Origin: Sphingosinicella sp.
GTDB taxonomy: Bacteria > Pseudomonadota > Alphaproteobacteria > Sphingomonadales > Sphingomonadaceae
Direction: 5' to 3'
Length of the DNA stretch: 64,000 nt
Assembly (NCBI GenBank): GCA_013816585.1
Contig: JACDEE010000001.1
Coordinates: 15,001 to 79,000, forward strand
In this document: positions 32,584 to 60,944 of the stretch, one piece after another
Layout of the letters: each line of letters opens with the position of its first letter
Numbering within the stretch: the stretch's first letter is position 1
Program-made: the position numbers and the translations under genes
The notes under the pieces: generated by a model
The model's input: only the letters and a program-made list of their open reading frames with translations
Databases searched by the model: none
Told to the model about the DNA's origin: nothing

Positions 32584-33735
32584 TTAGCTGCTATATTCGG
32601 TGATCGCTTCGAACATGGTGGTCAGCGCTCGCTTTTCATCATCGGTGATTTCGGGCCGCCATATCTCGAAAAGCAGGATTACCCGCGTCTCGGCGCTGCC
32701 GTTCCAGGCTTCATGTTCAATACTGTCGTCGAAGATCAGCGTCTTGCCTTCCTCCCAGGTCCGCGTCTCGTTTCCGACCCGCAGCCGGCAATCGGGCGGC
32801 ACGATCAGCGGAAGGTGGCAAATGAGCCGCGTGTTCAACAATCCGCTATGCGGCGCGATATGCGCCCCCGGCCGTAGCAGCGAAAACAGCGCCATGGGCG
32901 ACCGGCCCTTGATCCGCGGCAACGGGACCTTGTCCAACGCCTTTATCGTGCGCGGACAACGCGCCGCATTTTCTTCGACAAGGGCGCCCTCCCGCCACAA
33001 GTGAAAGGCACTCCAGCTCGGGTCGCCGCGCATTCTGTGCCGGGTCGGCGGGCGGTTCGGAACATCCTCGACATAGGGCGTGAAGGCGCCTTCTTCCTCG
33101 ACAATCGCCTGCAATTCGGACCGAATTTCCGGTGCCGCCGCCTCCAATTCGGCCAGCCAGGTAAATTCCTCGCGCTCGTAAAACTGGATGTGCGGGAGTC
33201 GCGGGAAGAAATAAGAACTCGGCTGCTGCAGGAACACCTGTTTTTCGCCCTTCAGCAGGCTGATCGCTTCCTCGAACCGAGCGCTGCGATGACCCGGCCC
33301 CAATCCTGCCTCGGTGAGCTTCCTCTCCAATTGGCCTCCGAAATCGCCCTTTGCCTCGATCAGAAAGGCCTCGGCCCGTTGCAGGTCGGGAATCAGGCCG
33401 GGAGGAACTGGGCCGTTGGCGGCCTGCTGCAGCGCCATTGTGTAAAAAGAGGTGGCGGCACGCTTGTCGATAGCGCGGGCATGACAATCGCCGCGCATCA
33501 GGAGCCCCTGAAGATCGCGCGGCTGGAGGGCCAGCAGGGTATCGAGGGCCTTTTCCTCGCCGCTATAATCTCCACCCATGCGGCAAGCCTGCGCCAGCAA
33601 TATCCAGGGGGGCGCTATCGCCCCTGATCCAATCACTTGTTCGAAAAGGCTTTTAGCCGAAACTGCATCTTGGCGCTGCAGGGCGGCAACAGCTTCGCGC
33701 ATCATTTTTTCGGCAGTGGCGGCATCGATCTGCAT
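32584..33735 (-). CDS. TPR - aspartyl/asparaginyl beta-hydroxylase-like protein
   Basis: A 383-residue cytoplasmic protein. TPR-like helices fill the first half (about 1-170). The C-terminal third is an AspH-type 2-oxoglutarate/iron dioxygenase domain. Visible metal-site histidines are in LRPGAHIAPHSG and in DDSIEHEAWNGS; the family uses two His with no acidic third ligand. The Arg in LRVGNETRTW and the RVILLFEIWRP strand complete the core. The family hydroxylates Asp or Asn side chains, here presumably on a protein bound by the TPRs. A paralogue lies at 46995. I chose ATG at 33735; the longer frame starts with TTG at 33801. Confidence 0.85.
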   Translation of the reverse strand: MQIDAATAEKMMREAVAALQRQDAVSAKSLFEQVIGSGAIAPPWILLAQACRMGGDYSGEEKALDTLLALQPRDLQGLLMRGDCHARAIDKRAATSFYTMALQQAANGPVPPGLIPDLQRAEAFLIEAKGDFGGQLERKLTEAGLGPGHRSARFEEAISLLKGEKQVFLQQPSSYFFPRLPHIQFYEREEFTWLAELEAAAPEIRSELQAIVEEEGAFTPYVEDVPNRPPTRHRMRGDPSWSAFHLWREGALVEENAARCPRTIKALDKVPLPRIKGRSPMALFSLLRPGAHIAPHSGLLNTRLICHLPLIVPPDCRLRVGNETRTWEEGKTLIFDDSIEHEAWNGSAETRVILLFEIWRPEITDDEKRALTTMFEAITEYSS

Positions 33736-33849
33736 GCAGGGGGCGTAAAGCAATGCGCCAGCCTCGCGCAAGCGCACGAAATAGCGTTCCCAATGCAGCA
33801 AAAAGCGCGGATGATCGTTTCAAGGGTAACACGAAAGACGAGGTCCGGA

Positions 33850-44327: not shown

Positions 44328-44894
44328 CTATTGGCCGTGAGTGCTGCCCTTGGATCCTTGCAATTCTCCCCACTCCTCGCGGGTACGTTGCGCCATGGAC
44401 TCCCAGTCAGCTCTTGTCGCGCAGATGCGCTCGAAATCTGCAAGCGAGCCGGTCTTGAGCCTCCGCCGGCAAATCTTCTTTTCAGGCGCGGCGTTGGAAG
44501 CGATGGTCATTGCAGGCGCCGGGGTGCCAGACGCGTTCGCCGGCAACCTCCAATTGACGACGCCGCTAGCGACCGAGCTTATCTTGCGGCCATTCTCGTC
44601 TTTGATGCCCTTGAAGGTCGCGCGATTGAGAATCAGCTGGCATGTTTCCGCATCCAGCAGCTTGTATCCGCTGCTCTGCGTCACTTCACAAGCGCTGGCA
44701 TAGCCCTCGCGGTCGAGCGTGACCTTGAAACCGACCGCGCCCTGCTCTCCCGCGGCGAGCGCCCGCGCCGGATACTGGCTTTCAATCACGGCCTCGTTAC
44801 TGGCGTCGCGAATGGCCGCATCATTTGGTGGTCCGGCGATAGACGGCGCTGCCGTTCCGAGGAGAAGAGCGAACAAGAAAGCCGTGCGGGTCAT
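44328..44894 (-). CDS. Secreted TonB-C-terminal-like protein with Cys motif
   Basis: A 188-residue protein with a signal peptide (about 1-20, APSIA then GPP). Residues about 40-115 look like a free TonB C-terminal domain (YPARALAAGEQGAVGFKVTLDREG, then ASACEVTQSSGY). It has no membrane anchor or Pro-rich spacer. The tail has a CRRRLKTGSLADFERIC segment followed by ATRADWE, a Cys-Arg/Thr-Gly-Ser/Cys motif I have seen in sphingomonad hypotheticals. It cannot act as a normal TonB, but might bind TonB boxes or peptidoglycan. It is near the TonB-receptor cluster and on the same strand as the dioxygenase gene, 93 nt away. Confidence 0.8.
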   Translation of the reverse strand: MTRTAFLFALLLGTAAPSIAGPPNDAAIRDASNEAVIESQYPARALAAGEQGAVGFKVTLDREGYASACEVTQSSGYKLLDAETCQLILNRATFKGIKDENGRKISSVASGVVNWRLPANASGTPAPAMTIASNAAPEKKICRRRLKTGSLADFERICATRADWESMAQRTREEWGELQGSKGSTHGQ

Positions 44895-44987
44895 AGCAAT
44901 TTCTCCGTCATGCAGCTGATTTGTTACTCGAAACGAGCCAAGCCTTCAACCCCGCACTCTTCGGCAGCACAGATCTTGTCACCTTTA

Positions 44988-45950
44988 CTAGCGGGGTCTC
45001 GGAGGAAATGGCGGGCAGAAATCCCTCTGACGCCAGATCGCATTTTGCGGCTCCTCTGGATCTGGAATGGCAAAATTAAGATAGCCGAAGAACGTCATGA
45101 TCAGTCGCTCGCCCGGATCCTCGATGGCGGTGCGCCCGTGCATGAAGCGGCTATTGTCGAGCATCAGCACGTCGCCGCTGCGCCAGGCGACTCCCGCGGA
45201 CAAGCGCTCCCCTGTATCTCTAATCGCGTGCAGCCAGGGGTCAGGCACCGGCTGGCCATTGTCGAGCAGCGGGTAACCTTGGCGGTTGTGATTGAACCGG
45301 GCAAATAGCAGAAAATTGCCGAAGGCCGGCTCATCGATGAACATCGGACGGTGGAGGGCTGGTCGGCTGAAGAAACGGACCACTTCGCCTTCCACCCGGC
45401 GAAATTGATAAGGGCACCAGTCTGGTGGATGAGCAAGCTGCTCATCGGTAGGTTCAGGATTCCCGAGCCAGAATTCGAGCAGGCCTGGCCAGGTCGGCTT
45501 GACCTGGAGCAATCGCCGTCCTTCCAGGCCGCGCCGGATTTCCTCCGGCATCTGGCGCACCAGTTCCACGCCGTCACACATCGTCGTTGCGCCGCCGCGG
45601 CTTGGAGCGGAGAGGCAGCCGAAGAAGGCGGCATCCGGCTTCCAGGGCTCGCGGGAAAGTTCTGGATGAAGCGAAAAAGGTCCGGTGCCGGCATCGACAC
45701 TATGGACGTTATTTGATGGATCGATGGGCTGCCGGCCGGGGCTTTCATTGACGACTGAGGTGGAACAGAATTGCCGCGCGAAATCGCGGAACTGATAAAC
45801 TTCGGCGCTAAAGCCCCGGAGCAGCAGCGCTCCGTGCATCTTGTAAAGCGAGATGATTTCGGCCGGATCCAGGTCCAGAACCGAACGCTCGTCGGTTGGC
45901 TCGACCAGCACGTACGGACGCCCGGCTTCCGGAAGGTGAATCGTCGGCAT
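44988..45950 (-). CDS. TauD/TfdA-type 2-oxoglutarate dioxygenase
   Basis: A 320-residue Fe(II)/2-oxoglutarate dioxygenase. The iron triad is likely His95 and Glu97 (SLHPEL; Glu replaces the usual Asp of HxD) and His271 (SRFMHGRTAI), with Arg282 as the 2-oxoglutarate anchor. No signal peptide. Related enzymes include clavaminate synthase-like and beta-hydroxylating enzymes of amino-acid derivatives, so side-chain hydroxylation of an amino acid or peptide is plausible. It is divergent from a sulfotransferase-like gene with 49 nt between starts, which may share control. The substrate is unknown. Confidence 0.85.
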   Translation of the reverse strand: MPTIHLPEAGRPYVLVEPTDERSVLDLDPAEIISLYKMHGALLLRGFSAEVYQFRDFARQFCSTSVVNESPGRQPIDPSNNVHSVDAGTGPFSLHPELSREPWKPDAAFFGCLSAPSRGGATTMCDGVELVRQMPEEIRRGLEGRRLLQVKPTWPGLLEFWLGNPEPTDEQLAHPPDWCPYQFRRVEGEVVRFFSRPALHRPMFIDEPAFGNFLLFARFNHNRQGYPLLDNGQPVPDPWLHAIRDTGERLSAGVAWRSGDVLMLDNSRFMHGRTAIEDPGERLIMTFFGYLNFAIPDPEEPQNAIWRQRDFCPPFPPRPR

Positions 45951-45999
45951 AACGAGCTTCGGATAGCGGATGCCCCGCTGCCGGGCTATAGCCGGATTA

Positions 46000-46974
46000 A
46001 TGACTTTGACGCTCGATGACCTGTTCGCCTCGCCGGATCACTACCTCCACTCATTTGAGGGTGAGGCGGCGCTGTTCATGCCCATGGATCGCGAGGCCTA
46101 TCATCGCTCGATCTTTCTCGACGGACGAATCTCCCCGGCAGCCAGCCGGACGATGCTCCTTCCTGTGAAGAATTTTACCGAGCGAATTCCGCAGCCCGCC
46201 GGGACCGGCTGGATCTTCCATATCGCGCATTGCGGCTCCACATTGCTCGCGCGCGCTCTCGACCAATTATCGACCAATCTGGTCCTGCGCGAACCCTTCG
46301 CGCTGCGGCAGCTTGGCTTCGACTATGATGAAGAGCGGCTGGCCTTGGTCGCGGCGATGCTATCAAAGCGATACCGGCCAGACACCCCGACGATCGTCAA
46401 GGCGAACGTGCCTGTCAATTTCCTGCTACCGCATCTGATCCGCCTGGAGCCGGACGCACACGCAATCTTCCTGCAATGCAGTCTTCGCGACTATTTGCTC
46501 GCCATATTGCGGGATGAAAATCATCGAGAATGGATGCGCCGGGTTACAACCCATCTGGCATCCCATTTGGGAGGCCTTTCGGGCCTGGCCGATCACGAGC
46601 GCGCAGCCGCGCTCTGGCTGGCGCAAATGCAGGCCTTTGCACGCGCGATCCGCCAATTGCCCAATGCCCGAAGTCTCGATTCCGAAGCCTTCTTCGCGCG
46701 GCCTCGCCATTTCGTCGGCGTGGCCGCAAGGCATCTGCAAGTACCGATCACCGAATTGGAGCTGGACGCTCTTTTCAAGGGCTCCCTATTTACGACCTAT
46801 TCGAAGAACCCGGCGTTGGAATTCGACAACGCAGCGCGAATGATAAGACGAAGATCATTGGAAGATAGCCTCACCCCCGAGCTTGACCGGGCACAGGCAT
46901 GGCTCGACGGGAGAAAGCAAGAAACCGCAGACGCCCTGGCTGTCATCGCCGCGAGCGCGCTCCAAAACGAATAG
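46000..46974 (+). CDS. Sulfotransferase-like protein
   Basis: 324 residues. A P-loop-like segment [16 protein letters not shown] (about 73-88) matches the layout of the 5'-phosphosulfate-binding loop of sulfotransferases (G-S/T-T-x-L), followed by LREPFALRQL. A possible 3'-phosphate strand is near IFLQCSLRDYLLAILRDE (about 160-178). No membrane segment or signal. It is related to the protein at 59913. I call it sulfotransferase-like because the core is weaker than in the gene at 48518. I chose ATG at 46000; ten further codons are open upstream with no ribosome-binding site. It converges on the TPR-hydroxylase gene with 20 nt between stops. Confidence 0.72.
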   Translation: MTLTLDDLFASPDHYLHSFEGEAALFMPMDREAYHRSIFLDGRISPAASRTMLLPVKNFTERIPQPAGTGWIFHIAHCGSTLLARALDQLSTNLVLREPFALRQLGFDYDEERLALVAAMLSKRYRPDTPTIVKANVPVNFLLPHLIRLEPDAHAIFLQCSLRDYLLAILRDENHREWMRRVTTHLASHLGGLSGLADHERAAALWLAQMQAFARAIRQLPNARSLDSEAFFARPRHFVGVAARHLQVPITELELDALFKGSLFTTYSKNPALEFDNAARMIRRRSLEDSLTPELDRAQAWLDGRKQETADALAVIAASALQNE

Positions 46975-46994
46975 GCGTCACCCGGCCGTTGCGG

Positions 46995-48284
46995 TCAACC
47001 CAATTTCACCGCGCTGTTGGTGGCACGACCGCTCCGGTCGGCCACTTTATAGAAGCTACGGAGCAGATCGCGTTCGGTGTCGGTAAGATAGGGGTTCCAC
47101 ACGTCGAAGATGAGGACGGCGCGCACCTCGCTCGATCGGTTCCAGGCCTCGTGCTCGATCGTGTCGTCGAACGCCCACGCCTTGCCTGCCGCCCATTCGC
47201 GCGTTTCGCCTCCAACCCGAAAGGCACAGCCGGGCGGGACGATGATCGGAAGGTGGATGATGGTCCGTACGTTGCTGACACCCGTGTGGGCAGGAAGGTG
47301 CGCGCCGGGTCGCAGCAGCGAAAAAAAGACAGTCGGAGTGCGCCCAGGCAGATCAACCAGTGGGAGGGCCTCGACTGCGGCTGCTGTTTGTGGCGCGCGC
47401 GCGCACGCGGCATCGTTGCGGCGCCCGTCCTTCCATAGATGCAAGGCATTCCAATCCAAGGAATGATCCAAGGGCGTCCACTTGTTGGTCGGGGTGCCCG
47501 GCTCCATCGCGACATAAGGCAAAAATCCTGCGTCATCGACGCTGAGCAACGTCTCGAGTTCAGCCCGGATGTCTTGGGTCCTGCCCTCGATTTCCGCCAA
47601 CCAAGGAAAATGCCGCCGCTCGAAAAATTCTTCCGCCGGCAAAAACGGAAAATGGAGCCCGGCACATTGATTGGGATAAATCTGGCGGCGGCCGAGAACG
47701 TGGTCAATGCAGGCGTCGAACCGCCGGCGCTCCGTCTCCGCAAGATCAAGTCTTACCTGGGCAAGCCCGTCTTCAACCGCGTCGGCGAAATCTGCACTGT
47801 GGCGGGTCACGGCTTCGCGAGCATGTTCAAGCATTGCCTCAAGGGCGGGGGTTCGCTGGTCGAGCATCGGGGCCATGGCGAGCACGCCCGACCACCGTTC
47901 CACCGCGCGGGCATTTTCCCCTTGGCGTTCGAACAATTCGGCGAGGCGCACCAGCGCCATGAAGTGGCGCTGGTCTAGCGCAAGTGCCCCTTCCAGCGCC
48001 GCCAATTCGGCCGCGTCATCTTTTTGTTCGCGTCCCGCTTTTGCTAGATTCATCCAGAGGTCGGGCGATCGCGGATCAGCGGCTATCGCGCGGCGAAAAA
48101 AGCCGGCGGCGGCGGCGGGGTCGCCGGCCGAGAGCGCATGAAAGCCAAGATCGTTCAGTGCGGCGGGCTGCTCGCCCTCTTCGGCAATGATCCGTTGAAG
48201 AATTTGGACCGCTTCACTGGCGCGGCCGGCTTGCTTCGCTGCGCGTGCGGCGGCGAGGGATCGTTGAATTTCTGCCTGGTCCAT
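46995..48284 (-). CDS. TPR - aspartyl/asparaginyl beta-hydroxylase-like protein (second copy)
   Basis: 429 residues with a longer TPR region than its paralogue at 32584 (about 1-170; NDLGFHALSAGDPAAAAGFFRRAIAADP is a clear TPR). The C-terminal AspH-type dioxygenase domain is strongly similar: LRPGAHLPAHTGVSN and DDTIEHEAWNRS supply the metal His residues, and RVGGETREW supplies the conserved Arg. The two copies share many identical residues across the last 100. It lies between the two sulfotransferase-type genes, which suggests that protein or peptide hydroxylation and sulfation are linked. ATG at 48284 is preferred over TTG at 48293. Confidence 0.87.
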   Translation of the reverse strand: MDQAEIQRSLAAARAAKQAGRASEAVQILQRIIAEEGEQPAALNDLGFHALSAGDPAAAAGFFRRAIAADPRSPDLWMNLAKAGREQKDDAAELAALEGALALDQRHFMALVRLAELFERQGENARAVERWSGVLAMAPMLDQRTPALEAMLEHAREAVTRHSADFADAVEDGLAQVRLDLAETERRRFDACIDHVLGRRQIYPNQCAGLHFPFLPAEEFFERRHFPWLAEIEGRTQDIRAELETLLSVDDAGFLPYVAMEPGTPTNKWTPLDHSLDWNALHLWKDGRRNDAACARAPQTAAAVEALPLVDLPGRTPTVFFSLLRPGAHLPAHTGVSNVRTIIHLPIIVPPGCAFRVGGETREWAAGKAWAFDDTIEHEAWNRSSEVRAVLIFDVWNPYLTDTERDLLRSFYKVADRSGRATNSAVKLG

Positions 48285-48293
48285 GCGGCTCAA

Positions 48294-48517
48294 TAGCCAG
48301 TTTGCCCCGGATGGACAAACCTCTCCCTGGTCCTGACTGACTTATCGAACAAGGGCCCCGGCATCCGTTTAGTGAAGCCGCGGGCGGCGTGCGGCGGGTC
48401 GCCGCCGGCCTCTCAATCCCGCAGATGAGAGCGCAGGCCCGATCGCCAGGCGTCCTCTCCGGTTCAGTCTTCGGTTAACGCATTCAGACTTTCCGCCAAA
48501 TTGTTATAGACGGGTAT
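48294..48517. other. Divergent intergenic region with a leaderless-type promoter
   Basis: These 224 bases lie between the divergent TPR-hydroxylase and TPR-sulfotransferase starts. There is a GC-rich inverted stretch (GGCGGCG...CGCCGCC) near 48385-48415. A TATAGA hexamer at 48505-48510 ends only 7 nt before the sulfotransferase ATG at 48518, so that transcript could be leaderless. The matching -35 is weak. No tRNA or small gene is seen. Confidence 0.4.
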
Positions 48518-50167
48518 ATGCCCAGTCGAAATAAGAGCCCCAAACGCGACACCGCCCTGCACCGTTCGCGGATTGCACGTATCGAACAGGCCCTCGGCAG
48601 GGGCGATATTGCGCAAGCCGCGACTATTGCGGCCGTCGCGCTGGCGGCCGGGCAGGTCGATCCGATGGTCCTCAACCTTGCCGCCTGGCGCTGCGAGGAA
48701 GCAGGCGACTATTCTGGAGCCCACCGGTTATTGCAACGGGCCCTGGACTTGGCCCCCGGCGATGTCCTCGTGCTGGGCGCCATAGGTTCCGTGCTGCGCA
48801 AGGAAGCCCGATTTGAGGAGGCGCTTGCGGTGCTTGACCGGGTAGTGGCGGCGGAGCCGCGTCACGCGGCGGCCTGGCTTGAGCGCGGCTTTACCCTCGA
48901 GGCCTTGCGATCGGAACGGCTTGCCACCGAAAGCTATAAGCGGGCACTTACCCTTGATCCCAACCTGGCCCCTGCGCTGGGTAAGCTTGCCGACGGCGCC
49001 GCCAGGCGAGGCGACACGGAGGAGGCGCTGGGTTTTGCCGGCCGTGCCGTTGCAATCGACCCGCTCCAGCCCGCGGCAGTCTTCGCCTTGGCCGCAATCG
49101 ATATTGAGGCTGGAGAGGGCGCCCGAGCGGAGGCCAGGCTTCGGAAATTGCTGTCTTCGTCTTTGAAGAACGAGGATCAGACGCGCACGTTGACTTTGCT
49201 CGGCGATGCGCTTGACCGACAAGACCGCTGCCCCGAGGCGTTCGCCGCCTACGTCCAGGCCCAGGAAATTTTCAGAAGCGTATATTCTTCGTATCTCGCG
49301 CCTACTCCTGAATCTCCTTCGCATCGCGATTTCATCGAGAAGATCGCGGCCCAGGTTCGGGACGCCGCCCCAGCGACCAGCCCAATTGCGCTCGCCCCTG
49401 TTCAGGGGGAGACCAAATCCCATATTTTCCTGCTCGGCTACCCGCGCTCCGGCACTACCCTGGTAGAAAATATTTTGGCGAGCGCAGCCGAAGTGGTGGC
49501 GCTTGAAGAACATGAAACCCTGGTCGACACCGAAGAGGTTCTGGTGGCGAATGACGGAACGATGGCCGACCTCGATGCTCTCGATCCAGACCTCGTCGCG
49601 AAACTACGCGCGAGCTATTGGGAAAGGGTTCGTGGCTGGGCTGGCGACGTAACAGGCCGCGTCTTCGTCGACATGAATCCGCTGAATGGAATCAAATTGC
49701 CGGTGATTGCGCGCTTATTTCCCGACGCCCGGATCCTGATCATGCGGCGCGATCCGCGCGATGTCGTGCTGAGCTGCTTCCGCATAAATTTCGTCCCTAG
49801 CCCGGCTGCCTATTCCTTCAGCAATCTCGAAGAGACCGCGCGGCATTATGATGCGTTGATGCGGCTCACAGAACTTTGCCGGGAACGTCTCCCGCTCGCC
49901 TTCCATGAAGTGAGTTACGGTAACCTGATCACCGATTTCGAAACGACCGTGTGCGAATTGGCCGATTTCGTTGGGATCGAATGGACGGAAGACTTTCGTG
50001 CCTTTGGCAAGACCGCCCGCCGTCGCGGGGTGCGGACCGCCAGCGCGACACAGGTCCGGCGGGGCTTGTACAATGGCGGAGGGAGGTGGCGACGCTACCG
50101 GACTGAGCTGGCAACGGTCCTGCCGATATTGGAGCCCTGGGTTAGGCGGTTCCACTTCGAACCATAA
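48518..50167 (+). CDS. TPR-containing sulfotransferase
   Basis: A 549-residue fusion of five or six TPRs (about 15-260) with a C-terminal sulfotransferase (about 290-545). The PAPS 5'-phosphosulfate loop is LGYPRSGTTLVENIL (near residue 305). The 3'-phosphate strand is ILIMRRDPRDVVLSCFRINF (near 405). A late GRWRRYRTEL helps bind the cofactor. The enzyme transfers sulfate from PAPS to an acceptor, probably a protein or peptide held by the TPRs, as TPST-like enzymes do. No signal peptide is visible. It converges on the TonB receptor, sharing a terminator region. PAPS is made by CysD-CysNC 4 kb downstream. Confidence 0.9.
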   Translation: MPSRNKSPKRDTALHRSRIARIEQALGRGDIAQAATIAAVALAAGQVDPMVLNLAAWRCEEAGDYSGAHRLLQRALDLAPGDVLVLGAIGSVLRKEARFEEALAVLDRVVAAEPRHAAAWLERGFTLEALRSERLATESYKRALTLDPNLAPALGKLADGAARRGDTEEALGFAGRAVAIDPLQPAAVFALAAIDIEAGEGARAEARLRKLLSSSLKNEDQTRTLTLLGDALDRQDRCPEAFAAYVQAQEIFRSVYSSYLAPTPESPSHRDFIEKIAAQVRDAAPATSPIALAPVQGETKSHIFLLGYPRSGTTLVENILASAAEVVALEEHETLVDTEEVLVANDGTMADLDALDPDLVAKLRASYWERVRGWAGDVTGRVFVDMNPLNGIKLPVIARLFPDARILIMRRDPRDVVLSCFRINFVPSPAAYSFSNLEETARHYDALMRLTELCRERLPLAFHEVSYGNLITDFETTVCELADFVGIEWTEDFRAFGKTARRRGVRTASATQVRRGLYNGGGRWRRYRTELATVLPILEPWVRRFHFEP

Positions 50168-50193
50168 AAAAGGCGGGCCGCGAACGGCCCGCC
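50166..50193 (-). terminator. Bidirectional terminator between TPR-sulfotransferase and TonB receptor
   Basis: A perfect 9-bp stem GGCGGGCCG / CGGCCCGCC with a CGAA loop (50172-50193). It is flanked on the left by six A residues (a T-tract for the minus strand) and on the right by CTCTCT. It terminates the TonB receptor gene. Its effect on the plus-strand sulfotransferase transcript should be weaker, for lack of a T-run. Confidence 0.88.
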
Positions 50194-50216
50194 CTCTCTA
50201 AATCTCGACAGCTGGC

Positions 50217-53200
50217 TTAGAACTTCAGCCGTGCGCCGATGGCGAAGCGGCGGCCAAGCGCGTCGTAGGTCGACGGATAGGTGTTGCCGCTGTTGAAGCT
50301 TGTCGAACCAATCGTGGAACCGACAATCGGTGGCTTTTTGTCGAGCAAATTCTGCACAGTCACCGTCATTTCCATGTTTTCGTTTACTTCGAAGCGCGTA
50401 GCCAGATCGAAATAATTGTGCGCCTTGATGTGCCCGAAATCGACCGTTTCACCATCGAGAGCGCCCGTGTTCGCTGTTACGCGGCCCGGCAGAACGCCGG
50501 CGTAGGCGACGACACCGTCTTCGGCCTGCATCTTGCCGATATGGCGCCACAGCAGCGATACATCGGTGCTGCCGAAGCTAAGCGTCGAGCGCTGGTTCCA
50601 GGAGAATTCTGGCTGCAGCGAACCTGCGGCCGAATTCGGCCCGGCTGAACCCGGCGAACCGCAATTGGGTGAGTAGAAGCCGACGCACTCGCGAACATCG
50701 GAAACAGGGAACAGACCGCCAGCTCCTGGGAAGCCCGCCGGAATCGTCGATCCGGGCGAAAGAGCCTGGAATTGCGAGCGGTTGGTCCAGTTGCCGATGA
50801 AGCTGAGGTTCATCTTCGCGAAGCCCAGATCACGGCGATAGTTCACGCCGAGGTCGATACCGTCGGTCAGGATGCGGCCCGAATTCGACGATGGGAAAAT
50901 GATCCCTCCCGTCGTCGCCGGATCACCCGATAGCTGGCCGGTCACTGGATCACGCAGGAACAGCTGACAGATTGGGTTATTCACGCTGCCAGCAGTGATC
51001 GCGCTACCATTATTATCACCAAAGCACCCGGTCACGAGATCGCCCGGAACGGGCTGCGAGATCGCGTCCTTAATCTTGATGTTATAATAATCGACCGTGA
51101 TCGAGAGGCCCGGCACGAAGTCGGGCTGGAACACTACGCCCAGGGTGTAGCTGTCCGACTTTTCAGGGCGCAGATAAAGGCCACCGGCAAAGACACCGTT
51201 GGACTGAGCGGCCGTGGGGTTCGCGATGGAACCGATGGACGAAGCCGGCGCACCTTGGGCGAGGCAGACCGCCCGCAGATTGGCGTTATTGACCGGATTT
51301 GCACCGCGGCAAGGATCAATGGCGAGATTCGTCAGGCCGACCACCGACGGAGCAAACAGCTCGTTGATGTTCGGTGCGCGAACCGCCCGCTGACGGTTGG
51401 CCCGGAACTTGAGGCCGTCAAATGGCTCCCAGGTACCCGCAACCTTCCAGGTCGTGGTGTTATATTTCGGCGAGGTGGGAGCATCGACCTTGTAGGCCGA
51501 ATAGCGCAAGCCGCCTTCGACGGTCAGGCTCTTGAAGAACGGCCTGTCCTGAACCAGCGGCGCAATCACTTCGCCATAGGCTTCGTAGACTTCATATCCA
51601 CCATCAAAGGCCGAGACGGCACCGCCGGCGCCACCCAGCTCTCCGGCCGATTGCGCCAAAGCATCGGGCACCGAAGCGCCGGTATAGTGACGGTATTCGG
51701 CACCAAGGGCGAAGCCGATTGGATCTTCTGCCCAGGGAGCCGAGGCACCGATATCGCCGTTCAGCAGAGCTCGCGCTTGTGACAGGGTGCTCTTGTTGGT
51801 GGTTGTCGCTTTGCCCCTCAGATAGGCGGCCATCGCTGGCGTGATGGAACCATCGGCGCCGAACAGGTTGACGGGAACGCAGCCAGTGCCCGCAGTGGGG
51901 CTGGCACCCGGCTGGGCGAGCGGCGGCAATAACGGGTTCGGATTGGCGATGGTCGGGGACGATCCGAGATTACAGGTGGTCGCGCTGGTGGTGTAGGCGG
52001 CCGTACGAACGCGGGACGTGAGCAAATATCCGTCCAGCGTCTGCCTGTTTTCGGATTCACCATAGGAACCCGACACGTCCAGATTGATGCTGTCGGTCAC
52101 GCCCATCCGCAGGCCTGCCCGATAATCGAAAATGTTGGTGACGAATTCCGAGGTGCGGGGGCCCAGTTCGGTAGAACGACGGCCAACCGTGGTCGTGAAT
52201 GTCCGGAAGTTAGGATCGCTGGGGCTCAGGGCCGTCGCAGCTGCGGCGCATTGCGCGGGAGTAAGCGTCTGAATACCAGCGGTGGCCCGATCGAAATCGT
52301 TATTCGCGCAGAAAGTGGCGCGAGCGGCCGCCGGGAGGAAAGGATTGCTGACTGGAATTGCCAGTACCGAGCTAAAAATGCCCGATGGCGCGACAATGGT
52401 GTTGACCGTGTTCTTCGAGAACAGGCCACGCGTATAGACTTCTATTCCGTCTGCGACTTCGTAATGACCCGCGCCGTAGATATTGAAGCGCTCGAAGGGC
52501 GTCTGGAAGATGTTGAACGGGTTGAAGTTGAAGTTCACGACCGGAGTCTGCAGCCCGCCCGTAGTGGGGTTGATCTGCCTGAAACCGCTGCCGACGGTGA
52601 AGCGCCCAGGCACCGTGGTGCCCGATCCGCCAACGGCACCCGTGGTGGACGTATAGTTGGAACGGGAGAATCGGCGGGCACCCTGATAAACGGGATCAGA
52701 TTCCTGATAGCCTACCGACAGCACCGCATTACCGCGACCGTCGTCGAAATTGGCACCGATCGTCGCATCGATACGGAACACGTTGCCGTCTCCGCGCTGG
52801 GTGATCTGTTCGCTTGCGGAGATCTCGGCGCCGGCGAAATCGCTGCGCGTGATGAAGTTGACGACGCCGGAAACCGCGTCCGCGCCGTAGGTTGTCGCGG
52901 CGCCGCCGGTCAGCGTGTCGACACGGTCGACCAGTGCCAGCGGGATATTGTTGAGATCGACGCGTCCGATAACGCTGGAAGGCGTAATGCGGTTACCGTC
53001 AAGAAGGACGAGGTTGCGGAAGTTGCCAAGGCCGCGAAGATCGGCGAACGATGAACCACCGTTACCATTGTTGACCGCGGAGCCCATGCTAGGCACGGCG
53101 CCGGGAAGGTCGCGCAGCAGTTCTTCGGCAACGTTCGACTGGCGGAGCTGAATTTCTTCCTGGCCGATCACCGACACCGGGGCAGATGAAACCAGGTTGG

Positions 53201-53387
53201 GGTTCTTGATGAGAGTCCCGGTCACGACGATCTCGCCGGAACTGTCTTCTTCGACCGGAGCGGCGGAATCCTGAGACTGCACGCCTGCTTCACTCGCATC
53301 CTGGGCGAAAGCGGGAGCTGAGAAAATGGTCATGCCGGCGATCACGGTCGAAGCCAGCAGCGTGTCCCTAAAGAGCTTTGTAGACAT
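50217..53387 (-). CDS. TonB-dependent outer-membrane receptor
   Basis: 1056 residues. A signal peptide (about 1-28, APAFA then QD) and an acidic linker are followed by a TonB box region (GEIVVTGT, near residue 51). The plug domain (about 65-175; LLDGNRITPSSVIGRVDLNNIPLALVDRV, TYGADAVSGVVNFIT) follows, then a large barrel with extended loops, ending in IGARLKF with terminal Phe. It imports a scarce ligand using TonB energy. The barrel is longer than a siderophore receptor and is of the sphingomonad NNIP...DRVD type often used for oligosaccharides, peptides or aromatic compounds. The ATG has AAGGGGACC before it. Confidence 0.93.
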   Translation of the reverse strand: MSTKLFRDTLLASTVIAGMTIFSAPAFAQDASEAGVQSQDSAAPVEEDSSGEIVVTGTLIKNPNLVSSAPVSVIGQEEIQLRQSNVAEELLRDLPGAVPSMGSAVNNGNGGSSFADLRGLGNFRNLVLLDGNRITPSSVIGRVDLNNIPLALVDRVDTLTGGAATTYGADAVSGVVNFITRSDFAGAEISASEQITQRGDGNVFRIDATIGANFDDGRGNAVLSVGYQESDPVYQGARRFSRSNYTSTTGAVGGSGTTVPGRFTVGSGFRQINPTTGGLQTPVVNFNFNPFNIFQTPFERFNIYGAGHYEVADGIEVYTRGLFSKNTVNTIVAPSGIFSSVLAIPVSNPFLPAAARATFCANNDFDRATAGIQTLTPAQCAAAATALSPSDPNFRTFTTTVGRRSTELGPRTSEFVTNIFDYRAGLRMGVTDSINLDVSGSYGESENRQTLDGYLLTSRVRTAAYTTSATTCNLGSSPTIANPNPLLPPLAQPGASPTAGTGCVPVNLFGADGSITPAMAAYLRGKATTTNKSTLSQARALLNGDIGASAPWAEDPIGFALGAEYRHYTGASVPDALAQSAGELGGAGGAVSAFDGGYEVYEAYGEVIAPLVQDRPFFKSLTVEGGLRYSAYKVDAPTSPKYNTTTWKVAGTWEPFDGLKFRANRQRAVRAPNINELFAPSVVGLTNLAIDPCRGANPVNNANLRAVCLAQGAPASSIGSIANPTAAQSNGVFAGGLYLRPEKSDSYTLGVVFQPDFVPGLSITVDYYNIKIKDAISQPVPGDLVTGCFGDNNGSAITAGSVNNPICQLFLRDPVTGQLSGDPATTGGIIFPSSNSGRILTDGIDLGVNYRRDLGFAKMNLSFIGNWTNRSQFQALSPGSTIPAGFPGAGGLFPVSDVRECVGFYSPNCGSPGSAGPNSAAGSLQPEFSWNQRSTLSFGSTDVSLLWRHIGKMQAEDGVVAYAGVLPGRVTANTGALDGETVDFGHIKAHNYFDLATRFEVNENMEMTVTVQNLLDKKPPIVGSTIGSTSFNSGNTYPSTYDALGRRFAIGARLKF

Positions 53388-53423
53388 TTTGGTCCCCTTG
53401 TCAGCGCCTTAGCGCATTTGAAG

Positions 53424-53453
53424 CATATAACATTGCCCGGCATTCCGGGTCAT
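53424..53453 (-). promoter_or_regulatory. Candidate promoter of the TonB receptor with internal dyad
   Basis: On the minus strand, ATGACC (53453-53448), 18 nt, TATATG (53429-53424). The same TATATG -10 appears in the rRNA promoter at 286. A CCCGG/CCGGG dyad with a 4-nt centre (53436-53449) fills the spacer and could be an operator. The start site would be near 53417, giving a leader of about 30 nt. Confidence 0.37.
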
Positions 53454-53621
53454 ATTGCCTCGTCTGTAGGGAGAATTGCACCTCCAGCGCAATCAGGATA
53501 CGGCCGAGTTACGAAAAAATGACAGCGTTGTTGTAAACGGAACACATATGCATCGCGGCCGGTCCGTGCGAGATTGGTGCAACAGAAGGACGAGCGGCCC
53601 CGATGTCGCGAGGAGTAGTGA

Positions 53622-54140
53622 ATGAAATTGTCTGCAATGATATTTCTTTCGTTGGCGTTGTCCGCCGCGGCGGATGCCCGGGACGCCCCGCCCCAGTCGC
53701 CTTTGATCCGGGCCCTGGTAGATTGCCGTTCCCAGACCAACGACACGTCGCGCCTGCGTTGCTACGATCTGGCGGCCGGAGCGCTGGTCGAAGCCTCGGC
53801 GCAGGGCAAGATTGTCGTGCTCGACCAGGAACAGGCGAGAACGACCCGCAGGTCACTGTTCGGATTCCACCTGCCGAAGCTGCCGCTGTTCAGCGGAGAT
53901 GAGAGCGCGGAGTTCGACTCGGGGGAACTCACGGCGAAGGTCACTTCCGTCCGGGCCATGCCCAATGGCCGTTGGCAGATGAAAATCGAGGGGGGCGCAT
54001 TGTGGGAAACCACCGAGGCATCGAGCGTGGTCAATGATCCGCGCGCGGGCAACACTCTGGTGATCAAGCGCGGACCGCTCGGCAGCTACATGATCCGAAT
54101 CGAAGGCCAACGCGCGCTCAGGGCCAAAAGGGTGGGTTGA
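53622..54140 (+). CDS. Small exported protein of unknown function
   Basis: 172 residues with a signal peptide (about 1-19, SAAADA then RD). A conserved-looking LVDCRSQTNDTSRLRCYDLAA follows, whose two Cys probably form a disulfide. A basic LFGFHLPKLPLF segment and a small beta domain (about 100-172; GRWQMKIEGGALWETTE) follow. The CRxxxxxxxRLxCYD pattern occurs in several proteobacterial envelope proteins of unknown role. The ATG has GAGGAG 7 nt upstream. It sits between the TonB receptor (divergent) and cysD (54 nt downstream), and could be co-transcribed with cysD. Function not known. Confidence 0.82.
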   Translation: MKLSAMIFLSLALSAAADARDAPPQSPLIRALVDCRSQTNDTSRLRCYDLAAGALVEASAQGKIVVLDQEQARTTRRSLFGFHLPKLPLFSGDESAEFDSGELTAKVTSVRAMPNGRWQMKIEGGALWETTEASSVVNDPRAGNTLVIKRGPLGSYMIRIEGQRALRAKRVG

Positions 54141-54193
54141 CCGGTCGAAGGGAGGCTTGACAGGAAGGCACCTGCGGCTGATCCGCAACGTTA

Positions 54194-55096
54194 ATGTCCG
54201 CGCTCACTCATCTCCAGCTGCTTGAAGCTGAATCCATTCACATCATCCGCGAGGTGATGGCGGAAATGGAGCGGCCGGTGATGCTCTATTCGGCGGGCAA
54301 GGATAGCGCGGTGATGCTGCATCTCGCCCGGAAAGCCGCCTATCCGTCGTCGCCGCCATTCCCCTTGCTTCACGTGGATACCGGCTGGAAATTCCGGGAG
54401 ATGTACGAGCACAGGGATCGCGCTGCGGCGCAAGGCGGCATGGAATTGATCGTCCACCGCAACCCTGACGCGGTGGAAAGGAACATAGATCCCTTCGTCC
54501 ATGGATCCAGCTTGCATACCATGTTGTGGAAAACCGAAGGTTTGAAGCAGGCCTTGTCAGCGCACCGTTTTGACTCTGCCTTCGGCGGAGCGCGGCGCGA
54601 TGAAGAGGCGAGCCGCGCCAAGGAAAGAATCTTTTCCTTCCGCTCGTCGAGCCATGCCTGGGACCCGAAGAACCAGCGGCCCGAATTGTGGCGGCTTTTT
54701 AACACCAGGATTTCGCCCGGCGAGAGCGTCAGGGTGTTCCCATTGTCCAATTGGACCGAACTCGACGTGTGGCAATATATAGAAGCCGAAGAAATAGAGG
54801 TCGTGCCTCTCTATTTTGCCGCAGCGCGCCCGACCGTCGAACGTGACGGCCAATTGTTCGTTATCGACGACGACCGCTTTCCCCTGGCCAAGGGCGAGCG
54901 CCCAGTCGAACGGCGGGTACGCTTCAGGACGCTTGGCTGCTATCCGCTGACGGCGGCCATTGAAAGCGACGCCACCACTGTCGCCGAGGTGGTGGATGAA
55001 ATGCGTCGAAGCCCTTCCTCTGAGCGAAGCGGGCGACTGATCGATCGCGACGAGGCCGCTTCCATGGAACGCAAGAAACGCCAGGGTTATTTCTAG
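54194..55096 (+). CDS. cysD: Sulfate adenylyltransferase subunit 2 (CysD)
   Basis: A 300-residue PP-loop ATP pyrophosphatase, the catalytic subunit of ATP sulfurylase: sulfate plus ATP gives APS. The PP-loop is SAGKDS at residues 33-38. Further family landmarks are the [21 protein letters not shown] segment (near 130) and [16 protein letters not shown] (near 247). It directly abuts cysNC, whose ATG starts right after the TAG. The Shine-Dalgarno site is weak. Confidence 0.96.
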
Positions 55097-56929
55097 ATGA
55101 CCTCCTTGCTTCGGCTGATTGCCTGCGGGTCCGTTGACGACGGAAAATCTACCCTGATCGGGCGCCTTCTCCACGATTGCGGCGGCATATATGACGATCA
55201 GCTTTCCGGGCTCGTCGCGGCTTCGCGCAGATTTGGTACCCAGGGCGGCGAAGTCGATCTGGCCTTGTTGGGGGATGCGCTGGAGGCGGAGCGGGAGCAG
55301 GGTATCACGATCGATGTCGCTTACCGCTTCTTCGCGACGCCGGCGCGCAAGTTCATTCTGGCCGACGCACCCGGACACGAACAATATACGCGCAACATGG
55401 TGACCGGGGCCTCCACCGCGGACCTGGCGGTGGTGCTGGTCGATGCGGGAAAGGGAATCCTTACCCAAACCCGCCGCCATAGCTATCTGGCGAAACTGCT
55501 CGGCATCGGCCGGGTCGTCCTGGCCGTCAACAAGATGGATTTGGTGGGATGGGATCGCGCCAGGTTCGAAGAGATAGCCGGAGAATATCGCAGCTTTGCG
55601 GAAGGGATAGGTATCCCGCAGGTGACAGCGATTCCCCTGTCGGCACTTACGGGTGCGAACGTGGCCTCGAAATCGGACCTTGCCGACTGGTATCACGGCC
55701 CGGCGCTCATCGAATATCTGGAGCAGGTCGACATAAGCCAGAATGCCGCCGGCCCCGGTCTTTTTCGAATGCCGGTCCAATGGGTCAGCCGGCCCAATGT
55801 GGATTTCCGCGGCTATGCAGGAACTGTCGTGAGCGGCACCGTCCGACCCGGCGATCAAGTGATCGTGCTGCCAGCCGAAACTCCCGCCGAGATCGAGCGG
55901 ATCGTCACGATGGACGGCGAATTGGCGGAGGCGGTCTCGGGGCAGTCTGTGACGCTCACTTTCACGAGGCCGGTCGAATGCGCTCGCGGATCGGTGCTGA
56001 GCAGCGCCGTCGACCTTCCGCAAAAGGGAGATCAGTTCGAAGCCGTGCTCCACTGGATGGCCAGCGAAGACCTGCTTCCGGGCCGGCAATATCTGCTGAA
56101 GCTCGCCACTCAGACCGTCGCCGCGGTGGTGCAAACGCCTAAATATGAAATCAACGTCGACACGCTCGAGCATCTTGCCTGCAAGACGCTGGGACTGAAC
56201 GCAATCGGGGTGGCCAACATCTGGGCCGACGGGCCGATCATATTCGAACCCTATGACGCCAGCCGCGATCTTGGCGGCTTCATCCTGATTGACCGGCTAA
56301 GTAATGCCACGGTGGCGGCTGGAATGATCAACCATGCCCTTCGCCGATCTATCAACGTCCACGAACAGATATTGGAGGTTACCCCGGAAAGCCGCGCGGC
56401 GCTCAAGGGTCAGCGGCCCAAGTTGCTCTGGTTTACCGGCCTCAGCGGGGCGGGCAAGTCGACTATCGCGAACATCGTTGAGCGCAAGCTGAATGCGCGG
56501 GGGCGCCACACCTTCCTGCTCGACGGCGACAATCTGCGACGCGGCCTCAATAAGGATCTGGGCTTTACCGACGCCGACCGGATCGAAAATATACGCCGCG
56601 CCGCGGAGACGGCCTGCTTGATGATGGACGCCGGGCTGATCGTACTCACCGCATTCATCAGCCCATTTCGCGCCGAACGGCAAATGGTCCGTGAAATGGT
56701 GGCCGAAGGAGATTTCGTAGAAATCTTCGTCGATACGCCCTTGGCCGATGCCGAGGCCCGCGACGTCAAGGGGCTCTATAAAAAGGCCAGGGCCGGGGAG
56801 CTGCAGAACTTCACTGGGCTGGATTCGTCCTATGAGACGCCGGAGGTTCCGCAAATTCGGATCGATACGATGCGCACGGCAGCCGAGGAGGCGGCGGACA
56901 TCATTATCGCCTATCTGGAACGGCTATAG
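55097..56929 (+). CDS. cysNC: Bifunctional CysN/CysC: ATP sulfurylase GTPase subunit and APS kinase
   Basis: 610 residues. The N-terminal part (about 1-420) is an EF-Tu-like GTPase (GSVDDGKS at 11-18, [20 protein letters not shown]) that drives CysD. The C-terminal part (about 425-610) is APS kinase with its own P-loop (GLSGAGKST near 446-454), the [11 protein letters not shown] segment and the [18 protein letters not shown] motif. The product is PAPS. The same fusion in rhizobia is NodQ, which supplies PAPS to the sulfotransferase NodH. Here two sulfotransferase-type genes lie within 10 kb. Assimilation through an APS-type CysH would not need the kinase, and no cysH is in the window. Confidence 0.95.
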
Positions 56930-58634: not shown

Positions 58635-59916
58635 GAATGTCCTGCTCATTGGATCGGGCGCCCGCGAACATGCGCTGGCGTGGAAGCTCGCGCAATCGCC
58701 GATGCTGGGCAAATTATTCGCCACCCCCGGCAATCCGGGTATCGCCCAGCACGCCGAAATTGTCGCAATCGACCCCCGCGACCATCGCGGCACGGTCGAT
58801 TTCTGCCTGAAAAATTCCGTCGAACTGATCGTGATCGGCCCCGAGGCGCCTCTTGTCGACGGGTTGGGCGACAATCTGCGCACGATGGGCTTTTGCGTGT
58901 TCGGTCCGAACAAGCTGCCCGCGCAACTTGAGGGATCAAAGAGCTTCACTAAGGATCTGTGCGCGCGCCACAATATTCCCACGGCGCGCTACGCCAAGGC
59001 CTCCGACCGCCTGGCCGCCGAGGCCGCGCTCGAGGACTTCGCGCTTCCAATGGTGATCAAGGCCGACGGGCTGGCGGCGGGCAAGGGAGTGATCATCGCC
59101 GGAACCGGGGAGGAAGCGATCGCCGCGCTGGACATCATGTTCGCCGGCGGATTTGGAAGCGCCGGTGCATCGGTGGTCATCGAAGAATTTCTGACGGGCG
59201 AGGAAGCGAGCTTCTTCGCGCTTACCGACGGCGAAACCGTGGTGCCGTTCGGGTCCGCGCAAGATCACAAAAGGGTCGGCGACGGGGATACCGGTCCCAA
59301 TACCGGCGGCATGGGCGCCTACAGCCCCGCGTCGATCCTCACCCCTGCGCTGGAACAGAGGGTGATGGACGAAATCATCCGGCCCACGATACGCGCGCTG
59401 GCCGATCGCGGATCGCCTTATTCCGGAATACTCTACGCCGGACTGATGCTCACGGAAGATGGCCCCTCGCTTATCGAATATAATGCGCGCTTCGGCGATC
59501 CGGAATGCCAGGTGCTGATGATGCGGCTTGAGGACGATCTGCTGGAAATCATGCTCGCCACGGCCAAGGGCAAGCTTGGATCCATGCCAACGCCTCGCTT
59601 CTCCGACGATGTCGCACTCACTGTCGTGATGGCCGCCAACGGCTATCCCGGCCCGCCCGAACGAGGCGGCCGCATCGACGGACTGGAAGTTGCGGCGGAG
59701 TCTGGCGCACTGGTGTTCCACGCAGGCACAGCGGAGGCAGGAGGCAGCATTGTGTCCGACGGCGGGCGAGTGCTGGCAGTGACCGCGCGGGGAAGCTCCG
59801 CAAAGGCGGCGCAGAAAACCGCTTATGCCGCTGTGGACGCGATCGACTTCCCGGCCGGCTTCTGCCGCCGGGACATTGGCTGGCGGGAGATCATGCGTTC
59901 GGGCGGCGAGAAATGA
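58633..59916 (+). CDS. purD: Phosphoribosylamine-glycine ligase
   Basis: 427 residues, an ATP-grasp enzyme of the second step of purine synthesis (GAR synthetase). Landmarks are [16 protein letters not shown] (residues 2-17), [24 protein letters not shown] and the Mg-binding [11 protein letters not shown]. The ATG at 58633 follows GGAGGGGAATCGGTC and is the family N-terminus. It overlaps the xseA start head-to-head, and its stop overlaps the next gene (ATGA). Confidence 0.96.
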
Positions 59917-60944
59917 GGGTGGCCGCGCCTGATGCAGGCCGCATTGCCGCCGATCCGCTCTGGTTGCCGCACCGCTACGACGAAGCGGCGGATGCCGTTC
60001 ACTTCATCCATCTGGAGCGCGAGGAGCACCGCGCCGCCATTTTTCTCACCGACGAATATATCCATGCCGACGTCGAAAGGGTCATTATGGCGCGCGCGGA
60101 AGCGGTGGCTTCAGCGGGCCCGCCGACGCCGCTTCACTTCATTTTCCACTCAGCTTATTGTTGCTCTACGCTGCTTGCCCGCGCCCTTGACGTTGAGGGC
60201 GTAGCCATGGGCCTCAAGGAGCCCGTCATTCTTAACGACATGGTCGGGTGGATGAAGCGCGGGGCGGCGCCCCACCAGCTGAAAGCGGTGCTCGACAACG
60301 TGCTTACCTTGCTTGCACAGCCCTTTTTGCCTGGCGAAGCCGTGGTGGTGAAGCCCTCCAATATCCTCAATTCCTTTGCCGAAGGGATGCTGGATATGCG
60401 GCCGCAGTCGAGGGCGCTGCTGCTCCACGCGCCACTGCCGGTCTATTTGCGTTCGGTGGCCAAGAAGGGCTTGTGGGGGCGGCTCTGGGTGCGCGAACTT
60501 TTTATCATCCTTCTGGAACAGAGGCTGGTCGACCTTGGTCTGGAGGATAAGAATTATCTCGACCTCACCGACCTTCAAATCGCAGCCGCCGGCTGGCTCG
60601 CCCAACAGGCCTTGTTTGCCCGGCTGGTTGAACGTTTCGGCGCGGAGCGGATAAGGACTCTGGACAGCGGCACTCTGATGGAACGGCCCGCCCAGGTCAT
60701 TGCGGGGTTGTCGGAACTGTTCGGCCTCGGTTTGGACGAGGCGGCCGCATCTGCCCTTGTCACCGGGCCCGCTTTCACTCGCCATTCCAAGTTCGATACG
60801 GATTTCACCTCCAAAGACCGCGCGGCGGAACAGCGCGATGCCGCAGCCACACATGGGGACGAGATCGAAAAGGTTAGCGCATGGGCTGAGGCGGTGGCGG
60901 CCGCCGCGGGGATCCGAACGGATTTGCCCGCCCCGCTGATCTAG
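59913..60944 (+). CDS. Sulfotransferase-like protein coupled to purD
   Basis: 343 residues. The P-loop-like segment [21 protein letters not shown] (about 73-93) parallels [15 protein letters not shown] of the protein at 46000, with Gly replaced by Cys. It is followed by [13 protein letters not shown] later [18 protein letters not shown] (about 165-182) aligns with the probable 3'-phosphate region. No membrane segment is present. The Gly-to-Cys change and the lack of an obvious RxxRD make catalytic activity uncertain. It overlaps the purD stop by ATGA but has no known link to purines. What it does is open. Confidence 0.7.

Follow-up and report, generated by a model that had tools for sequence, protein, structure and literature searches.

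Why would a bacterium keep the gene of a TonB-dependent outer membrane receptor among genes for oxygenases and sulfotransferase-like proteins? The question is raised by a locus in a 64,000-nucleotide stretch of contig JACDEE010000001.1 from Sphingosinicella sp. (here called the window), in which the TonB-dependent receptor (TBDR) TBDR1 is accompanied by a TauD-type 2-oxoglutarate (2OG)/Fe(II) oxygenase, by a protein that combines tetratricopeptide repeats (TPR) with an aspartyl/asparaginyl beta-hydroxylase domain (TPR-AspH), by a TPR-sulfotransferase (TPR-ST), and by a member of a sulfotransferase-fold family that we call STL. The original prediction had read these genes as a shared hydroxylation and sulfation system. 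That reading is partly supported: hydroxylation stands, whereas sulfation is weakened. The linkage itself is real and conserved. In our judgment the chances are even that it reflects an uncharacterized TonB receptor-linked modification module, of which STL is the most distinctive part. Among the literature matches listed, no paper describes the locus, and the words sulfotransferase, hydroxylase, and oxygenase do not appear in the main text of a study of sphingomonad TonB transporters (PMC7142613).

Conservation of the receptor-linked neighborhood

In many Sphingomonadales the interval from clpB to xseA-purD is a frequent site of the module, with the recurring order clpB, a variable block of enzyme and f16 genes (f16 being a small secreted family described below), TBDR1, ORF172, a gene labeled M23-like by eye, xseA, and purD. 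The variable block comprises TPR-AspH, STL, TPR-ST, a TPR-2OG oxygenase (PF13759), TauD, and f16 in differing number, order, and strand, and oxygenases of the AspH, PF13759-TPR, TauD, and Sel1-PF13640 families interchange at one place. A Sphingobium, for instance, has the order purD-xseA-M23-ORF172-TBDR1-STL-TPR-AspH-f16-clpB. These observations come from regions of up to 20 kb fetched around 40 TPR-ST genes, 40 TPR-AspH genes, and 80 TPR-AspH loci of named genomes, with genes called by a codon-trained caller and labeled by profiles built on sequences of this analysis. The sets were picked by similarity to the window enzymes and describe these families rather than a random sample of genomes. 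Rows in which no TPR-AspH gene was called were dropped, namely, 4 of 20 distant regions (L125, L127, L133, and L134), 1 of the 80 named loci (79 kept), and 5 of 26 regions from outside the order (L297, L298, L302, L305, and L306); counts out of 70 omit 9 of the 79 named loci, which had fewer than nine called genes. Because the caller misses some genes, each family count is a minimum; for STL, gene calls gave 50 of 70 named loci and a six-frame search gave 56 of 70.

Of the 40 TPR-ST loci, 30 had a TBDR gene no more than three genes away. For TPR-AspH a TBDR gene lay at this distance in 17 of 20 close loci, in 9 of the 16 distant ones, and in 61 of the 79 from named genomes. The same regions held 8 TBDR genes among 827 genes that were more than four genes from any enzyme (in the named set, 2 among 429), a background from which about 6% would be expected for six neighbors. 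The 2.82-Mb host genome has 23 plug-domain matches, and all three Sulfotransfer_3 genes found in it have a TBDR as immediate neighbor (window, L034, and L035); the two outside the window are on other contigs, and one of the three places also holds a Sel1-2OG oxygenase. Beyond Sphingomonadales, a TBDR was within five genes in 8 of 21 TPR-AspH loci, two of the eight resting on weak TBDR scores. One locus outside the order reads TBDR-ORF172-AspH-f16-f16 (L289), and L312, fetched by its STL from a different family of the class, reads STL-AspH-TPR-ST-TBDR-TPR2OG. Lack of a conserved neighborhood, which would have refuted the original prediction, was not the outcome: TPR-AspH, TPR-ST, STL, and TBDR1 are neighbors across Sphingomonadales and in some loci beyond. 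In loci L058 to L072, a second TonB receptor family of about 800 aa (TBDR2) adjoins other TPR-STs in most cases, and several of these loci carry genes that by eye resemble an amino acid permease, a Rieske-type protein, or an FAD oxidoreductase.

On a tree covering 85 of 136 TPR-AspH rows, two old subfamilies were resolved, each with TBDR-linked and unlinked members; 107 of the 136 rows were linked to a TBDR within four genes. The window also encodes a second TPR-AspH, a paralogue from the other old subfamily, a close relative of which stays beside TPR-ST in L036 and L038. Large genes beside lone TPR-AspH genes, suspected of being receptors, proved to encode UvrD (two cases), a transketolase-like protein, and an RNB exonuclease.

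Catalytic motifs and the pairing of STL with oxygenases

The catalytic domains of TPR-AspH and TPR-ST have two protein modifiers, human ASPH and TPST2, as their nearest kin of solved structure, the former being the best non-TPR match of TPR-AspH in the PDB and the latter the best match of the sulfotransferase domain. TPR-AspH shares with human ASPH its architecture of TPR plus AspH domain and its catalytic motifs, H.G..N.R and FDD..HE being present in all 28 aligned sequences; we take their His, His, and Arg to be catalytic. No signal or membrane anchor is visible in TPR-AspH. The HPE, HGR, and R motifs of TauD, presumably in the usual roles of HxE, H, and R, are kept in all four called TauD proteins of the locus. 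TPR-ST retains both PAPS (3'-phosphoadenosine-5'-phosphosulfate) motifs, the 5'-phosphosulfate-binding (5'-PSB) and 3'-phosphate-binding (3'-PB) elements, in 16 of 16 aligned sequences.

STL differs from TPST1 and TPST2 in the absence of these PAPS loops. The family has a sulfotransferase fold and falls below every Pfam cutoff, and the two window members, STL334 and STL343, matched no Pfam or NCBIfam model. None of 28 STLs has the Arg/Lys-containing 5'-PSB loop of the PRSGTT type, all 28 having [FL]H.[AG].[CV].ST instead; a profile alignment places a two-residue gap in STL at the Pro-Arg of that loop. Nor does any of the 28 have Arg at position 169 or 170, which align with the invariant 3'-PB Arg of TPR-ST. 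We assume that the 5'-PSB Arg/Lys and the 3'-PB Arg serve PAPS binding as in other sulfotransferases. On these motifs STL is ruled out as an ordinary PAPS sulfotransferase, although the fold fits. The original proposal of two PAPS-dependent sulfotransferases is not supported: STL lacks both signatures, and gene calls found TPR-ST in no more than a minority of the named loci (18 of 70). TauD calls numbered 2 of 70; both counts are lower bounds.

Nor is the proposed donor link supported. The host genome has a single strong CysNC match, in the cysD-cysNC pair next to the locus (second-best score, 78 bits), and because of this the pair probably represents housekeeping sulfate activation. Neither gene was found in any of the 70 named loci; the pair was found in 1 of 25 TBDR1 loci of a second set (L124). 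The first set, with 19 TBDR1 loci, yielded one weak match resembling CysNC (26 bits), in L062, and no CysD there. We reject a dedicated PAPS supply for the module, as the original prediction had it, and judge the pair a neighbor rather than a part of the module.

Among 94 STL genes, many of them in regions chosen by TPR-AspH, most have a 2OG oxygenase gene a few hundred bases away. A family scan gave 47 STL matches in 37 of 99 genomes; neighbors were visible for 26 of the 47, some in regions chosen by TPR-ST or TPR-AspH, and 19 of the 26 had an oxygenase within 800 bp. Ten STLs fetched blind to their neighbors adjoined TauD (two), a PF13661 oxygenase (three), or no oxygenase within the 4.4-kb stretch (five). 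STL subfamilies track the family of the adjoining oxygenase: a tree built from 55 of the 102 STLs requires 9 changes of partner label, against 26.6 when the labels are shuffled, and none of 200 shuffles was as low. The label was assigned within 600 bp and, where two oxygenases were near, TauD and then OX220 (described next) were preferred over AspH; a TPR-AspH is also near in four TauD-labeled rows (window, L037, L145, and L148) and in L312, labeled OX220. The ten TauD-partnered STLs form one clade (support 100/98), and six of them have TauD alone. Elsewhere in the host genome, outside the window, an STL is paired with OX220, a 220-aa oxygenase (locus C22, L311:9355-11241) that exceeds the PRK05467.1-3 cutoff (199.7 versus 143) and scores 122.6 bits against the YbiX model (cutoff, 399). 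By its own profile, the OX220 family is also paired with STL in L104, L130, L197, and L312.

Candidate partners of the receptor and possible functions

TBDR1 lies below every NCBIfam receptor cutoff shown, and the nearest of the PDB sequences to its plug is that of BtuB. The original prediction had named the receptor as a possible substrate. The EGF-type ASPH substrate motif, in the form we take it to have, was nearly absent, being found in 2 of 126 TBDR1-type sequences, a difference from human ASPH, and some STL-oxygenase pairs and TPR-AspH genes are located away from any TBDR. These results do not support that suggestion; modification of the receptor itself may nevertheless occur. Certain 8-mers are enriched upstream of TBDR1, probably on account of near-identical relatives.

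Other candidates are the small secreted proteins. The f16 proteins, of about 90 to 120 aa, have signal peptides and a C-x(14-15)-C spacing followed by Trp, with four invariant columns among 18 sequences, none of the core positions being a fixed Asp, Asn, or Tyr. Gene calls place them in 39 of the 70 named loci, with up to four in a row, as in L112:10576-12168, where four consecutive f16 genes lie between TPR-AspH and clpB. A Pfam search of the 18 returned four chance-like matches of one member each, and f16 was assigned to no Pfam family. Of 99 genomes of the family, 61 held f16 matches, 86 in total. With an f16 model built from locus members and with partial, hand-typed lists of TPR-ST, STL, and TPR-AspH places, 29 of the 86 were no more than 6 kb from a listed enzyme and 57 were not. 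The TonB_C-domain protein of the window ends in C..GS...C.T..W, a motif common to f16 of the same locus in relatives, and this fusion hints at periplasmic work with the receptor. Outside Sphingomonadales, L289:4864-5875 encodes two f16 proteins that each carry C..GS..C..W twice in tandem, beside TBDR1-ORF172-TPR-AspH. In L115, L149, and L153, TPR-AspH is still accompanied by f16 although the stretch has no called TBDR; the pair retained in L153:9377-11272 and in L149 would fit these two being tighter partners. ORF172 was called in 45 of 70 named loci; the window copy has no Pfam match, and one relative gives a VasI match below the cutoff.

The closest known systems are the receptor-dioxygenase pairs CciT-CciO of Caulobacter, Fiu-YbiX of E. 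coli, and PiuA-PiuC of Pseudomonas. As in these, a TonB receptor gene adjoins the gene of a cytosolic 2OG oxygenase and is conserved with it (61 of 79 named loci here), and OX220, from a family that pairs with STL, is recognized by a model of the PRK05467 series, to which YbiX also belongs. The window oxygenases, in contrast, are TPR-AspH and TauD rather than members of the PRK05467/PKHD family; the locus adds sulfotransferase-fold proteins, TPR-ST, and small secreted families; and TBDR1, with a plug nearest that of BtuB among PDB sequences and subthreshold NCBIfam scores, differs from siderophore receptors of the Fiu/PiuA type. By our comparison the window locus is not a member of the CciT-CciO-type pairs, since its oxygenase and receptor families differ, and is likened to them in its working. 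In the excerpts of two studies on which we draw, CciT-mediated iron acquisition and fitness with EDTA require cytosolic CciO, with CciT still produced in its absence (PMC12004947), and cciT and cciO mutants are equally copper sensitive, with less CciT protein in the absence of CciO (PMC12004943). On transport the two disagree, and neither settles the chemistry.

By eye, ORF172 and the TonB_C protein have signal-like N termini, and none is visible in the oxygenases, STL, or TPR-ST. In our favored reading, to which we give even chances, oxygenases and STL/TPR-ST would act in sequence in the cytosol. An oxygenase would hydroxylate a residue or a ligand group, and its sulfotransferase-fold partner would next act on the new hydroxyl. 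For TPR-ST the donor would be PAPS, whereas STL would draw on a different donor or simply bind. TBDR1 would need the resulting product, which could be f16 or some other secreted peptide or protein, the chain of the receptor, or a ligand made by the cell. In its working the module would resemble CciT-CciO, with additional enzymes. A bolder version, which we regard as a long shot, is that cytosolic TPR-hydroxylases and TPST-fold proteins tailor f16 or the receptor, the modified protein being an obligate partner or ligand of TBDR1, and that STL is a sulfotransferase-fold transferase using a non-PAPS donor on hydroxyls from its dedicated oxygenase, in a bacterial counterpart of hydroxylation and sulfation in the eukaryotic secretory pathway. 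If true, this would supply a missing link between outer membrane receptors and their cytosolic dioxygenases. Why Fiu, PiuA, and CciT accompany a cytosolic dioxygenase is posed as an open question in the excerpt of PMC12004947, and the module adds many clues: oxygenases of six kinds in it or beside the STL family, the STL subfamily pairing, and two small secreted families yield concrete candidates for substrate and product.

Several observations weigh against this favored reading. The locus genes are on both strands and do not form one operon. The TBDR link is weakly clustered on the TPR-AspH tree (21 changes versus 24.5 when shuffled), and some TPR-AspH genes have no TBDR in the 20-kb stretch (e.g., L129, L131, and L137). 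The same is true of the STL-oxygenase pair at C22, with no TBDR called in its 20-kb stretch, and of such pairs in the 4.4-kb stretches of L313 and L315; 7 of the 26 scanned STLs have no oxygenase within 800 bp. STL may be noncatalytic. In the window TPR-ST, and in 8 of 16 TPR-STs in all, Met replaces a Lys of TPST2 that we take to be part of the TPST catalytic site and that the other half of the aligned TPR-STs keep. In a crude test, Fur-type operator patterns were not enriched upstream of 99 TBDR1 genes. In the excerpt of PMC12004943, finally, Fe or Cu transport is independent of CciO.

A different and rather unlikely account is that TBDR1 imports a compound which cytosolic oxygenases and transferases break down or detoxify after uptake, as proposed for PiuC, YbiX, and CciO in the excerpts of PMC12004943 and PMC12004947. 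The enzymes beside the receptor lack visible signal peptides, and the exchange of one enzyme family for another would suit a range of ligands. The conserved core, however, has no recurring inner membrane transporter (by eye, most other genes there being unannotated), and a peptide or protein substrate is suggested by the TPR domains and by kinship to ASPH and TPST, the closest enzymes of solved structure. Such a substrate could also be the cell's own ribosomal peptide (RiPP), modified by the enzymes and then recognized by TBDR1, which we consider improbable. A gene-family table for the related Pontixanthobacter/Allopontixanthobacter, seen in an excerpt of PMC10040529, lists under near-consecutive numbers (1738 to 1748) lasso B2, nucleotidyltransferase, ABC ATPase, sulfotransferase, aspartyl beta-hydroxylase, a hypothetical protein, sulfotransferase, PqqD, an asparagine synthase-like protein, and glycosyltransferase. 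If numbering reflects adjacency, these families resemble a lasso cluster with both enzyme types, which suggests that a peptide substrate stays in play; the 2OG hydroxylase CanE is described, in an excerpt of PMC8498205, as hydroxylating Asp of a linear lasso precursor, and f16 genes are short and repeated in the locus in up to four copies. Against this, Pfam recognized no lasso or other RiPP maturation gene in the window locus, f16 has signal peptides and no fixed acceptor residue of the Asp, Asn, or Tyr kind, and seven TBDR-poor TPR-AspH neighborhoods read by eye were unlike a RiPP cluster, with no lasso-type cluster seen in them.

The interval from clpB to xseA-purD could, lastly, be a chromosomal hot spot that collects unrelated genes, the enzymes being independent of the receptor. 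Gene order and strand do differ widely among genomes, and cysD-cysNC is present there in the window and in L124. The same families nevertheless meet elsewhere and outside the order (L286, L289, L294, L303, and L312), the other two Sulfotransfer_3 genes of the host adjoin TBDRs on other contigs, and STL-oxygenase pairing follows the STL tree, which makes this explanation very improbable.

Gene content of the locus

Every gene named in the original prediction was recovered at the same coordinates, open reading frames and Pfam agreeing (Table 1). STL334 probably starts at the ATG at 46000.

Table 1. Features of the locus and related genes of the window
Feature	Position	Strand	Basis or remark
Secreted TonB_C-domain protein, C-terminal end with f16 motif	44328..44894	-	Pfam TonB_C, 3.6e-12
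TauD-type 2OG/Fe(II) oxygenase, divergent partner of STL334	44988..45950	-	Pfam TauD, 2.6e-28
STL334, 334 aa, sulfotransferase fold without PAPS motifs	45970..46974	+	No Pfam match
TPR-AspH, TPR repeats and Asp_Arg_Hydrox (aspartyl/asparaginyl beta-hydroxylase domain)	46995..48293	-	Pfam
TPR-ST, TPR repeats and Sulfotransfer_3, PAPS motifs	48518..50167	+	Pfam Sulfotransfer_3, 2.7e-29
TBDR1, TonB-dependent receptor, 1056 aa	50217..53387	-	Pfam plug and barrel; conserved partner
ORF172, 172-aa secreted protein divergent from TBDR1	53622..54140	+	Signal-like N terminus; 45/70 named loci
cysD	54194..55096	+	Pfam; judged outside the module
cysNC	55097..56929	+	Pfam; judged outside the module
STL343, second STL, just past purD	59913..60944	+	Orthologues in relatives adjoin TPR-AspH
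Second TPR-AspH paralogue, other old subfamily	32584..33801	-	About 10 kb from locus, away from receptor

The closest kin of STL343 in relatives are, for the most part, adjoined by TPR-AspH. Its start lies 4 bp inside the end of purD, and translational coupling to purD is possible.

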